IMG/VR virus record: IMGVR_UViG_3300009157_000002
Coordinates: 1-64,000 of that record
DNA from: a virus
Direction: 5' to 3' (one strand)
Length of the DNA: 64,000 bases
Positions 12,180 to 16,704 of the stretch are shown piece after piece. The position numbers and the translations under genes were made by a program. Below the pieces are notes generated by a model. The model saw only the letters and a program-made list of their open reading frames with translations. It made no database searches and was not told where the DNA came from. How positions within the stretch are numbered: position 1 is the first letter of the stretch; the number at the start of each line of letters is the position of its first letter.

Positions 12180-13412
12180 TTATTCAAATAAATTTATTTG
12201 CGTGTTTGGTGCTTTAGCCCTGCAAGCTGCAATCCTGGCCTCACTTATTTTACAATACTCTTGTTCTTTTTCTATCAGTACATAGTTAAACCCTTCTTCC
12301 TCACAAGCAATCCCTGTTGTACCACTCCCGGCAAAAGGATCCAGACATATACCGCCTGGAGGTGTAACAAGTCTTACCAGGTATCGCATAAGACTTACTG
12401 GCTTAACCGTTGGATGATGATTTGCAACTTCTCTGGATCTATTCTCCGGATTTCTATTATTGTGAATTAACCCTTCATCGGTATGAATACCATAGCTTGC
12501 GTGTTTATTGTCTTTTAACTCAAATCCTTCAAGTCCTTTATTCCTTTCGCTTTGTGATGCTTTGGCGCAATAAAAAAAACGTGAAGCTCCTACCTTGCCG
12601 CTTTGTTCATCTAACATTTTTGAAGCTTCTTCATTAAAAATTATATTGGCTGGAAAACGGCCATCTTTACTTAAAACCTGAACCTTATCTGCTTCATGGT
12701 CTTGCATGCCCCAACCATCATTAACCTCTCTTACGTTTCTGTTAATAACTCTTAGGTCTTTTTCGTCTTGTTTTTGCAGGTCAATCCTACACCCATCAAT
12801 ATTAATCCCTCCAACACCCCATTTTAAAAAATTATCTGCTACTGTTCCTTCTATTGGTTTTCTTGCTACACATATAGGCTCGTTGGCTGGCTTTAAGGAG
12901 GTACCCCAGCCAGCCCATTGTTTTGCTTTGTTGCAAAGGGGAATGTCTTGAGGTCTTGGACATTTACATGGATTACTAGAGCCAAACCATTTTCCACAAC
13001 TCAAACACTTCTGATTTCCTGTTATACCAATCTTTCTATCTAGGCCCTCAAAATTATTATCCCTTTCTGCCCCTGCCTCCTTATCAAGCGCCTTACTAAC
13101 ATCTAAGCTTTTAGGAAAGCCACTTCCATAAATCCATTGCATCTGATCTCTGATCTCAAAACCTGCATCTTCAATATTCACTACCATTCTATGATAGGTC
13201 CTGGTTCCTCCAAAACTTAAAACATGACCACCTGGCTTTAACACACGAAACACCTCTTTCCAAAATTCAATACTAGGTACTTGATGGTCCCACTTCTTAC
13301 CCATAAACGTCAACCCATACGGAGGATCTGTTACCACTGAATCGAAATAATTATCGGGGTAAGCTTTTAACACATCCATGTTGTTTCCTTCAGTAATGGT
13401 TTGTGTACTCAC
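12180..13412 (-). CDS. Orphan DNA methyltransferase (DPPY class)
   Basis: 410 residues from GTG at 13412, which overlaps the TGA of the upstream gene (GTGA); this start keeps the TITEGNNMDVL strand before the catalytic motif. TDPPYGL gives the catalytic motif IV and DPFAGSGTTGIAC gives the SAM-binding motif I; motif IV precedes motif I, the beta-class order of N6-adenine or N4-cytosine methyltransferases. A central insert has a zinc-binding pattern CLSCGKWF...CKCPRP. No restriction enzyme is next to it, so it probably protects phage DNA or alters regulation. The DNA further upstream in this frame belongs to the neighbouring gene. Confidence 0.85.
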   Translation of the reverse strand: MSTQTITEGNNMDVLKAYPDNYFDSVVTDPPYGLTFMGKKWDHQVPSIEFWKEVFRVLKPGGHVLSFGGTRTYHRMVVNIEDAGFEIRDQMQWIYGSGFPKSLDVSKALDKEAGAERDNNFEGLDRKIGITGNQKCLSCGKWFGSSNPCKCPRPQDIPLCNKAKQWAGWGTSLKPANEPICVARKPIEGTVADNFLKWGVGGINIDGCRIDLQKQDEKDLRVINRNVREVNDGWGMQDHEADKVQVLSKDGRFPANIIFNEEASKMLDEQSGKVGASRFFYCAKASQSERNKGLEGFELKDNKHASYGIHTDEGLIHNNRNPENRSREVANHHPTVKPVSLMRYLVRLVTPPGGICLDPFAGSGTTGIACEEEGFNYVLIEKEQEYCKISEARIAACRAKAPNTQINLFE

Positions 13413-14251: not shown

Positions 14252-14973
14252 TTTTTACCTAATTTTTCGTAGTCAATTTTTATTTCCTGATTCGCCTCGA
14301 TCAACTTTTCAATTTTAGATTTGTTTTTATCCTCCGGATAGAATTTTTTATCGTTTCGCTTCCAAGTAACAAGCCGTCCGGCAATCTGGAATGTGCCCCC
14401 CTTTTTTTTGGCAATTTCCCATTTCATTTCATTTCCATTATTTTCGATCCAATGCCGGATAAAATCATTAAGCATTTCACGCGGGTACTGGTCCGAAAAT
14501 TTTTCCACTTCCGAACAAAAAAAATCTGATCTTTCTTGTATCGTTTCCTCTTTATTATTTACTTTACTTATCTTATCTTTACTTATCTTATCTTTAGAGG
14601 CGTTACGAACGTGTTCGTAACGCGTTACATTTTTTTCATTTCTCTGACATTCACGCCATTGCCGAATACGATCATTGTTTTTTTCATTTTTTATGTGGTA
14701 CTTTTCACTAAACTTTAGCAATTGTTCGTTGAAAGTTTCACCATTGTTTGACGAAATAAGTTCGATTTGTTCCATAAACTTCCAACATTTTTCAAGCTTT
14801 TTTCCGACTTTTAATTGTGATTTTAGTACCACCGTTTTAATCGGTTTTTCCTGTAATGCAACTTTTTCCAACAGCGTATAAAACAACCCTAATCCTTCGT
14901 AACCAAATTCTAAAAACAGCTCTGCTATTTTCTCGTCCTGAAAGGATGTAGTACTGTGGAGGTAATACTTCAT
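14248..14973 (-). CDS. DUF4373-type replisome-organiser-like protein
   Basis: 241 residues. The N-terminus MKYYLHSTTSFQDEKIAELF and FGYEGLGLFYTLLEKVA is the Lin1244/Lin1753-like DUF4373 winged-helix domain of phage replication initiators. A Lys/Asn-rich linker with KDKISKDKISK follows (a short tandem repeat), then a helical domain with the DFIRHWIENN motif. Such proteins bind the phage origin and recruit the host helicase. It lies in the early leftward operon next to a probable partner gene at 13409. Confidence 0.75.
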   Translation of the reverse strand: MKYYLHSTTSFQDEKIAELFLEFGYEGLGLFYTLLEKVALQEKPIKTVVLKSQLKVGKKLEKCWKFMEQIELISSNNGETFNEQLLKFSEKYHIKNEKNNDRIRQWRECQRNEKNVTRYEHVRNASKDKISKDKISKVNNKEETIQERSDFFCSEVEKFSDQYPREMLNDFIRHWIENNGNEMKWEIAKKKGGTFQIAGRLVTWKRNDKKFYPEDKNKSKIEKLIEANQEIKIDYEKLGKK

Positions 14974-15617
14974 AATCTACTACGCTCCTTATTTATGCTA
15001 AACTTAACCACCCATAACCAGGGATTTTTTTTTAAACTTTCACTTCCATTTATGTCAATCCAAATATTAAAAAATCCTTCCCGGTAACTCACTTCAGAAA
15101 TTTTACCAAAACCCAATAAACCGCCCAATGAAACCCCTTCGGCCATTGCGCTTTCTTCGGTAAGATCATGCAATCGTTCTACACTAATTTCGTTTACTGT
15201 AAGCCATAGTCGGGAATGTTCTTTTTTAAGATGGATAGAAGGTTTCCATTTAACCCCTCCCATTATCAGATCAATAGCCAATGTCAGATCTGATCTTTCA
15301 GCATAATAGATAATACCATCTGTGCTGGGCGAAAACGGTAAAATATTAGCCCAGCTTTCCCGTACATAAAGGAGATCTCCTGGACTGCCATACGGACATT
15401 TAATGGTAAACATTTTATCATCATTTTTATTACGAAACACAGCACAGGAGCGACCAATATCAATCGTATCAACCTCTCGCGCGCACAACGCAAGCTCCCA
15501 TTGATCCGGGTTTAGATTTATCATCTGTAAACCCGCAAGTCTCCTGGTCTGTGTTTTTATTTCTTTACAGATTGCCTGCACCATTTCTGTTTGGAAGAGT
15601 ATCGGGTATTCTTTCAT
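14970..15617 (-). CDS. ASCH-domain protein
   Basis: 215 residues. The N-terminal PILFQTEMVQAICKEIKTQTRR and CPYGSPGDLLYVRESWA are the hallmark of phage ASCH-fold proteins (PxLFSxxMVxAIxxGxKTxTRR...GDxLWVRE). The fold binds or modifies RNA; some members are amidohydrolases acting on modified cytidine. It is the first gene downstream of the structured non-coding block at 15618-15989, which would form its 5' leader. Its stop overlaps the next start by four bases. Confidence 0.8.
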   Translation of the reverse strand: MKEYPILFQTEMVQAICKEIKTQTRRLAGLQMINLNPDQWELALCAREVDTIDIGRSCAVFRNKNDDKMFTIKCPYGSPGDLLYVRESWANILPFSPSTDGIIYYAERSDLTLAIDLIMGGVKWKPSIHLKKEHSRLWLTVNEISVERLHDLTEESAMAEGVSLGGLLGFGKISEVSYREGFFNIWIDINGSESLKKNPWLWVVKFSINKERSRL

Positions 15618-15796
15618 TTTTATTTATTTGTTAATCCCTTTCGGGAGCCGTCTTTCCGTGCTGTCATTAGGTGTACCTAAAATCATAAGCTCTATATGTG
15701 GGGTTTTAGAGCCTCTTTAAACCTCGGCCTCCACTAGCCGCCGCTTCCTGGTGTTTCCACTTCTGCGGGCTTTCGCATTACATCGCTTAGGGGTTG
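15618..15796 (-). ncRNA. Structured GC-rich leader between the tRNA-like element and the ASCH gene
   Basis: 179 bases without an open reading frame. On the minus strand it has several stem-loops: TGCGAAAGC and GTGGAAACAC and CCCGAAAGGG with GAAA loops, GCTCTA/TAGAGC around a 12-base loop, and TTAGGT/ACCTAA. The clear rise in G+C against AT-rich neighbours and the GNRA-type loops suggest a folded RNA, either a second domain of the tRNA-like RNA upstream or a regulatory leader. Not matched to a known family. Confidence 0.5.
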
Positions 15797-15989
15797 TTCC
15801 GGTGGCAGGGTTCGAACCTGCATGATTGAGTTTTATCCGGGATCCCGCCTTTAAGACTTCGGACACTTTGCGCTTGCACCGTCCACCGTTTGGCCTACCA
15901 ACTCTGCGCCTAATGCGAGTTGCTCAATCTATCCGATAAGCGTCTACAATGAGATTGGTGCCCAGCCAATCCCTTCCGCCACACCGGAA
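15797..15989 (-). ncRNA. Structured RNA with tRNA-like acceptor, D and T arms (193 nt)
   Basis: The ends pair perfectly over 8 bp (TTCCGGTG at 15989-15982 with CACCGGAA at 15804-15797). Directly inside the 3' strand is a full T arm, GCAGG-TTCGAAC-CCTGC. Inside the 5' strand, TGGCGGAA and GTAGACGC resemble a tRNA-Leu D arm split by a hairpin (GATTGG/CCAATC). The middle 100 bases also pair: CAACTC/GAGTTG, GATTGAG/CTCAATC, GGAC/GTCC. No normal 7-base anticodon loop can be placed and CCA is not encoded. A plain tRNA would be about 75-90 nt, so this is either a tRNA with large insertions or a tRNA-like ncRNA. It lies in the early operon. Confidence 0.6.
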
Positions 15990-15993
15990 ATTT

Positions 15994-16704
15994 TTAATGT
16001 TCGATCACTACTAAATCATCCTCAAAAAGGGTTACTTCTGCATCGATCAGTTTTCCACCTTCGGTAACGATTAACTCTTCGAGCTCCTGGCTTTCTAAAT
16101 AAACACGGATGGTTGAATCGGTAGCATCCGTACCTATTTCAATCCGAAAGGTGCAAGCTGGTTGTCCTACAAAAATTGGCATAGTAAGCACGAACTCTAG
16201 TTGGATATTGGAGGTAACTTTTTTATCAATAAGCTTCCTTTCGTTTCCTTTGATGTCCTGCTTCTGTTCTAAATCAGTTTCAACTTTAGCGGTCATGGTA
16301 TTAAGCGCGGTAACCACATCCATATTTTGCTCTTTTTTCGCAAAAAGATGTTTCCGCATCTTTAAAAACTGTGCAAGATCTTTTGGAGTGCGGTATGTTT
16401 TGGTGTTCACCGAAAAGTCTACCAGGTCCGGGTTAATAATTAGCCTTCCGGTAATGGTATCGCAGAAGTAATCCCTTTCGTTAATATTTAAAATGATCTC
16501 CCTGGTTTTTTTGGAAAAGGTTACATGCGCCTTTTGTTTATCAATAAGTTCATGCCTTTTGTTATAAAATGCGCTAGGGCTGGTAATAGAGCCAACAATA
16601 TTCAACGGAATTGGCTCACGAACAGGCAAAGCCACACCATGTCGAATAACAACCTCGTTGGTGTCCGGATATAAATTGAGATTAAGTTTTTCCTGATTTT
16701 CCAT
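15994..16704 (-). CDS. Conserved-type early phage protein (DUF2303-like context)
   Basis: 236 residues, soluble, beta-rich with a helical middle. The segment IVGSITSPSAFYNKRHELIDK and the long charged helix around residues 125-160 stand out. Its place between recombination genes and replication genes recalls DUF2303-type early proteins of other phages, but I see no decisive motif. It ends four bases before the tRNA-like RNA. Function unknown. Confidence 0.6.
   Translation of the reverse strand: MENQEKLNLNLYPDTNEVVIRHGVALPVREPIPLNIVGSITSPSAFYNKRHELIDKQKAHVTFSKKTREIILNINERDYFCDTITGRLIINPDLVDFSVNTKTYRTPKDLAQFLKMRKHLFAKKEQNMDVVTALNTMTAKVETDLEQKQDIKGNERKLIDKKVTSNIQLEFVLTMPIFVGQPACTFRIEIGTDATDSTIRVYLESQELEELIVTEGGKLIDAEVTLFEDDLVVIEH

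Follow-up and report, generated by a model that had tools for sequence, protein, structure and literature searches.

Anticodon-less tRNA-Leu-like RNAs of phages: a candidate natural tRNA scaffold

What can an RNA with both ends of a tRNA and no anticodon be doing in a phage? The usual explanations for phage tRNA genes are codon supply and the evasion of anticodon nucleases. The question is raised by a locus of a gut-type phage, found in a 64,000-nt stretch (the window) of a 73,948-nt IMG/VR virus record. An earlier note, made from the letters of the window alone, had pointed to a 193-nt RNA with a tRNA-like acceptor and T arm around an expanded body. The element sits on the minus strand, in a gap of 376 nt that contains no ORF of at least 60 aa. 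Recombination genes are present in the window phage and an integrase lies about 6 kb from the element; other tRNA genes were not found in this phage.

The element in the window

The element, its parts and its two neighbouring genes are listed below.

15994 to 16704, minus: upstream gene, phrog_11501, DUF2303-like, with its stop codon 4 nt before the element
15797 to 15989, minus: whole anticodon-less tRNA-Leu-like RNA, recovered by the family extraction script under the same rules
15989/15797, minus: extra U-A pair beyond the 7-bp acceptor stem, using discriminator A73
15982 to 15988, minus: acceptor stem 5' strand, TCCGGTG (sequence and family-wide acceptor covariation)
15940 to 15979, minus: D arm, GCGGAA...TAGACGC, stem GCG/CGC (comparison with relatives)
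15951 to 15973, minus: 8-bp hairpin in the D loop, GGGATTGG/CCAATCTC (similar inserts in L143, L147-L149 and L153)
15822 to 15939, minus: 118-nt insert (cargo) where the anticodon and variable arms would be, with U48 (15822) as its last nucleotide
15930 to 15936, minus: helix A 5' strand, TCGGATA, pairing with 15859-15865; predicted to form an H-type pseudoknot with helix B, which it crosses
15923 to 15929, minus: helix B 5' strand, GATTGAG (folding and helix search)
15899 to 15922, minus: hairpin CAACTC/GAGTTG within the cargo (folding and helix search)
15859 to 15865, minus: helix A 3' strand, TGTCCGA (helix search)
15824 to 15830, minus: helix B 3' strand, CTCAATC, separated from the T stem by 2 nt, which is the positional signature of the family
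15805 to 15821, minus: perfect T arm, GCAGG-TTCGAAC-CCTGC (sequence)
15798 to 15804, minus: acceptor stem 3' strand, CACCGGA (sequence)
15797, minus: discriminator A73 (A73 in 175 of 206 unique relatives)
14970 to 15617, minus: downstream gene, phrog_874 (gene calling and family match)

Read as a tRNA, the element has a 7-bp acceptor stem followed by U8 and G9, a D arm whose loop holds a hairpin, and further on U48, a T arm and A73; it runs TTCCGGTG-TG-GCGGAA[GGGATTGGCTGGGCACCAATCTC]ATTGTAGACGC, 118 nt, GCAGG-TTCGAAC-CCTGC-CACCGGA-A. The predicted mature RNA extends from 15988 to 15797 (minus strand, 192 nt), and CCA is not encoded. The T arm is as canonical as the earlier note had it. The closing helix, described there as having 8 bp, is present and is better counted as the acceptor stem TCCGGTG/CACCGGA plus the additional U-A pair with A73, while the tRNA-Leu-like D arm stands as part of a Leu-like shell, with the refinement that its loop (TGGCGGAA...TAGACGC) holds an 8-bp hairpin insert. 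It is worth pointing out that the D loop reads ATTG-TAGACGC, and because one G of the usual GG is lost, the elbow and the Leu identity of the window copy are less certain. A GG directly before (N)AGACGC is usual in the class, is kept in the other D-loop-hairpin variants and is not needed for membership. The Leu-type D arm, U48, the T arm and a pairing acceptor stem are all present in the window copy, as is an insert helix that ends 2 nt before the T stem.

Taken alone, this copy leaves few traces in the usual programs. ARAGORN calls neither a tRNA nor a tmRNA gene at the element, no anticodon arm is found in it, and Rfam gives no match at gathering cut-offs. At E<=10 the tRNA family (RF00005) is the only one to respond, with a partial match of 13.2 bits (E = 9.4) against a gathering score of 29; the models for tmRNA, GOLLD, ROOL and the group I intron are unmatched, and the first opinion that no tmRNA tag or intron core fits was right. 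Plain free-energy folding does not detect the element (MFE z = -0.46 against shuffles). Since Rfam, ARAGORN and folding are all weak, the window sequence by itself is no proof of an RNA gene, and it is the sequence comparison with relatives that makes the case solid and confirms the RNA element at 15989 to 15797 as real. The remaining 179 nt of the gap (15618-15796, minus), also without an ORF of at least 60 aa, contain several hairpins (z = -1.24) and might include another RNA or a regulatory element.

Relatives and the tRNA shell

Phages of Bacteroides, Phocaeicola and Flavobacterium were found by tblastn with the upstream gene. In Bacteroides phage BS-TP2, an element reading GGTATCG-TG-GCGGAATTGGTAGACGC-57 nt-GCAGGTTCGAATCCTGC-CGATACC-A begins 26 nt after the orthologue of that gene; Rfam scores it as a tRNA with 40.1 bits, yet leaves a 43-nt stretch unaligned. 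LoVEphage/PV4-TP1 has a 164-nt version (GAATAAG...CTTATTC) in a gap a few genes downstream of the upstream-gene orthologue, and the LoVEphage version is common to six records. In MW660583.1 (L358:1525-1727) this element is annotated as tRNA-His in two pieces with the note tRNA-Undet, which is probably a misannotation of an anticodon-less RNA. Another element comes straight after the orthologue of the upstream gene on contig L084, where two similar hairpin-like repeats (GTGCCGGCATGGTGGCCGG / GTGCCGGTATGGTAGCCGG) are located downstream of it at 12640-12710. At this locus the homologous phages retain the closing helix, in sequences that differ and still pair, so that its absence from them, which the earlier note had named as grounds for refutation, is not what is seen. 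The D-arm pattern was unmatched in Versailles and in Flavobacterium phage 1/32, and no near relatives of the window were found by exact DNA-pattern scans, close-protein scans or megablast of 24 kb of the window.

A much larger set was collected with the pattern TGGCGGAATTGGNAGACGC-N50-80-GGTTCGAATCC, the ordinary tRNA spacing being about 37-42 by our count. At least 120 stretches matched in IMG/VR, which includes near-duplicates, whereas 84,980 prokaryote genomes yielded only 16; one of the 16, in Sphingobacterium cellulitidis, adjoins a tape-measure-like gene (our reading of the protein) and would therefore lie in a prophage. A scan for longer inserts gave at least 120 more stretches, a sizeable share of them two adjacent ordinary tRNAs, and an acceptor-pairing filter was meant to drop these paired neighbours. 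D-loop-hairpin variants resembling the window copy numbered 15, several of them genuine. Among the matches listed, 263 elements passed an extraction script that demanded pairing in both the acceptor and the T stem, and these had 215 unique inserts; a further shell scan brought the IMG/VR total to about 360 distinct elements. The class counts are minimum figures and favour the Leu type, the patterns having prescribed the greater part of the D arm and of the T loop. Cultured carriers include BS-TP2, the LoVEphage relatives PV4-TP1 and BI-TP1, and Leuconostoc phage phiLM33_01. The class is partly visible to tRNA finders and not recognised as such by them (40 bits for BS-TP2; one LoVEphage record labelled tRNA-His/tRNA-Undet). 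The 'tRNA-Undet' of Microbacterium phage Librie, a 70-nt gene that is not expanded, was rejected as a member.

Genuine tRNAs, by ARAGORN or Rfam, adjoin the elements in large phages with tRNA arrays, and where canonical tRNA-Leu genes occur at the loci of the elements, their acceptors are different ones (mostly GCC- or GTC-). An 8,534-nt virus fragment (L111) carries 24 ordinary tRNA genes and three elements with an AGTCAGG shell and unrelated inserts. In phiLM33_01, a Firmicutes phage isolate, an unannotated anticodon-less Leu-type element (L364:301-420) lies beside an annotated tRNA-Trp. A second, rarer flavour of the architecture has a Ser-type D arm and expanded inserts (L278, L284, L291, L302, L303; L288, L299, L304; L279, L286, L295, L301), with C48, a discriminator A or G and no recognisable anticodon arm.

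The evidence for a folded tRNA core comes from pairing. The acceptor pairs at 6 or 7 of 7 positions in 107 of the 117 unique matches, unfiltered. Half of the Leu-type set has the acceptor AGTCAGG/CCTGACT in common, with unrelated inserts; with this group left out, 55 of 59 acceptors pair, compared with 5.7 after shuffling of the 3' strands. Three or more Watson-Crick pair types occur at every acceptor position among the relatives, in which both the 7-bp acceptor stem and the T arm covary. Position 48, which was free in the pattern, is T in 111 of the 117 relatives having A15, and it is C wherever listed in the Ser-type and class-I-type control matches, which have G15. Within the AGTCAGG shell, where 15 and 48 were both free, the two are complementary in 166 of 185 elements, G-C/T-A exchanges included (Fisher p = 5e-5); the tertiary 15-48 Levitt pair covaries. 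Conservation of the D arm and T loop is not independent evidence, as the search patterns fixed most of both.

These results bear on the notion of a decaying tRNA pseudogene or attachment-site remnant, which would suit a score under the Rfam tRNA cut-off and an integrase at about 6 kb. However, both tRNA halves are present, pairing is kept despite sequence change in the orthologous phages and in the family, the tertiary contact covaries, and the element recurs in unrelated phages; decay is in our opinion very improbable. Covariation without an Rfam match had been proposed as support for a new class, and this is what is seen for the window copy. The element belongs to a large, covarying phage class and is not a singleton, with the reservation that some relatives score as tRNA in Rfam (40 bits). 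Literature searches, which barely covered bioRxiv, found no published description of such RNAs, and a preprint may exist.

The insert

Across the class the insert is 48-150 nt long and highly diverse: 206 inserts fall into 122 groups at 66% identity, with 102 singletons, and copies in one record have a common shell with inserts only 38-64% identical. In minimal members, such as L388, the cargo is a single hairpin. A search for a common motif gave only weak k-mer enrichment, and antisense matches of the inserts to their own locus showed no excess. The inserts of six anticodon-less elements with a class-I shell (L309, L320, L337, L345, L348, L352) do have a motif in common, around GGTRAAGGACC.

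In 55 inserts, against 18.8 in shuffles, there is a helix with a gap of precisely 2 nt between its 3' strand and the T stem, and other gaps to the T stem showed no comparable excess. At the 2-nt gap, strong crossing (H-type pseudoknot) helix pairs occur in 28% of inserts and in 5% of shuffles, and crossing helices are stronger than in shuffles across the inserts overall. The two strongest cargo helices of the window, 15930-15936/15859-15865 and 15923-15929/15824-15830, cross each other (p = 0.013 with the gap fixed at 2; p = 0.06 with the gap free), and the 'several hairpins' first described in the body are better read as an H-type pseudoknot in which helices A and B cross. Crossing helices are likewise predicted in BS-TP2 (p = 0.003 with the gap fixed) and in LoVEphage (p = 0.01, only with a free gap). 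In 14 clusters of relatives, two-sided changes were counted in 17 of 147 predicted cargo pairs compared with 2.5 in slid controls; 8 of 506 cargo-pair cells are broken, a figure biased by the derivation of the structures from the same alignments. Five pairs have cargos 82-93% identical and acceptor stems that are largely different. An L-shaped tRNA shell closed around a structured, often pseudoknotted insert is the architecture that these sequence comparisons strongly support.

Such an insert could in principle be a small intron or a split anticodon arm, the removal of which would leave an ordinary decoding tRNA-Leu. Perfect split anticodon arms do exist in some of the class-I-type control matches, 37% of which score >=6.5 in an excision test against 0% in shuffles. 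The Leu-type inserts, in contrast, contain no split arm (mean best single-excision score 5.03 vs 4.96 shuffled). If a hidden intron is meant by it, the idea of a 'tRNA with insertions' is thereby excluded for the Leu type, an ordinary tRNA-Leu is hardly credible at the window locus, and the absence of a usable anticodon, already suspected from the window, extends to the Leu-type family. Phage class-I tRNA genes with intron-like inserts (L318, L319, L323, L326, L329, L331, L341; Lys UUU, Ile UAU and Asn GUU types) form a separate observation. They become perfect tRNAs once a 42-54-nt stretch between nt 28 and 29 is removed; these stretches start with TA, mostly contain a hairpin and an ACAGCAA/GCAGCAA-like motif, and are far smaller than group I introns.

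A tmRNA-like device for ribosome rescue or A-site entry has also been considered. As in tmRNA, tRNA-like ends without an anticodon and pseudoknots occur in the same molecule, and on virus contig L014 (2992-3315 and 3472-3564) a complete tmRNA gene adjoins an anticodon-less Leu-type element. Unlike tmRNA, the element has no coding part and no Rfam tmRNA match at E<=10, and it has a Leu-type D arm with a D stem; the class shows no conserved reading frame or common cargo, and its shell is of the Leu and not the Ala type. We consider such a device quite improbable. The RNA is neither a functional tRNA nor a tmRNA, and it cannot decode.

Possible roles of shell and cargo

According to the review by Giege and Eriani (PMC9976931), E. 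coli LeuRS cannot do without A73, A15-U48, G18G19 and A20a for leucylation, and tRNA-Leu variants without anticodon and variable arms are still leucylated by this enzyme. These determinants recur in the class, and leucylation is plausible on both grounds. The elements are co-directional with the upstream gene in 152 cases against 37 and with the downstream gene in 159 against 31, and for a quarter of them the distance to the upstream stop is no more than 14 nt; this arrangement suggests that the elements are co-transcribed and processed. No neighbour gene family is constant across the class; the neighbours include two Acb2/Tad1 anti-defence sponges and single RNA ligases, too few for inference.

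The best reading, offered tentatively and at somewhat less than an even chance, is that of a phage-encoded non-decoding tRNA-Leu-like RNA, that is, a natural tRNA scaffold whose variable cargo is functional. Judging from what is known of tRNA enzymes, host RNase P and 3' processing would release the shell from the transcript of an early operon; it would receive CCA and would probably be charged by host LeuRS, which needs neither the anticodon nor the variable arm. It might keep the insert stable and disguised as a tRNA, with the insert acting as a variable effector. The likeliest targets, at a guess, would be host factors in phage conflict, for example tRNA-directed or RNA-binding defence proteins, and inserts would vary among phages and among copies in one genome because of such targets. 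We infer the effector role only, since the cargos have no common motif, no antisense target at their own locus and no constant neighbour.

It is also possible, at around a third of our belief, that a leucylatable, CCA-ended shell is the functional part and the insert a filler, there to close the fold and to do away with the anticodon. Such a mimic might draw off LeuRS, EF-Tu or tRNA-attacking defence enzymes, in the manner of a decoy or sink, or might donate Leu for uses other than translation, and the loss of the anticodon would confer immunity to anticodon nucleases; phage tRNAs are known to evade those of the host (background in PMC13015707). The recurrence of the Leu determinants fits this well, and mutually unrelated inserts, down to the one hairpin of L388, suit an inert filler better. 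On the other hand, cargos of up to about 150 nt would be a costly filler, and it is because cargos outlast the replacement of the acceptor stem, show compensatory changes in their helices and occur several to a genome that the scaffold is favoured. A bolder form of the scaffold reading is a general natural system of one conserved, leucylatable shell and unrelated, fast-changing effector domains, with several of these to a genome, which would make it the RNA equivalent of anti-defence protein islands; we regard it as conceivable and rather unlikely.

Several known systems resemble the element in part. With bacterial tRNA-Leu (RF00005) it has in common the acceptor stem, the UGGCGGAAUUGGUAGACGC-type D arm, the T arm, U48 and A73, but it lacks an anticodon arm and a normal variable arm and has instead the class's 48-150-nt insert and, in the window, the D-loop hairpin. 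GOLLD and ROOL are likewise large structured phage RNAs, whereas this element is much smaller, is closed by a tRNA acceptor stem and does not match their Rfam models. Plant-virus 3' tRNA-like structures are aminoacylatable tRNA mimics with pseudoknots at the ends of genomic RNAs; the phage RNA, in contrast, comes from an internal gene in a DNA phage genome and has an ordinary helix as its acceptor. The closest plan is that of the engineered tRNA scaffold of Ponchon and co-workers, in which the acceptor, T and D arms are kept and the anticodon arm is the insertion site (PMC3753655). That scaffold is man-made and based on human tRNA-Lys3, while the phage RNA is natural, of the Leu type and has evolved cargos.

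The class may thus be a natural counterpart of the tRNA scaffold made by RNA engineers, one which tRNA finders miss or call 'undetermined' and which, with carriers among cultured phages, is open to direct testing. A widespread class that keeps everything but the anticodon would mean that the decoding role of phage tRNAs is separable from their other uses.
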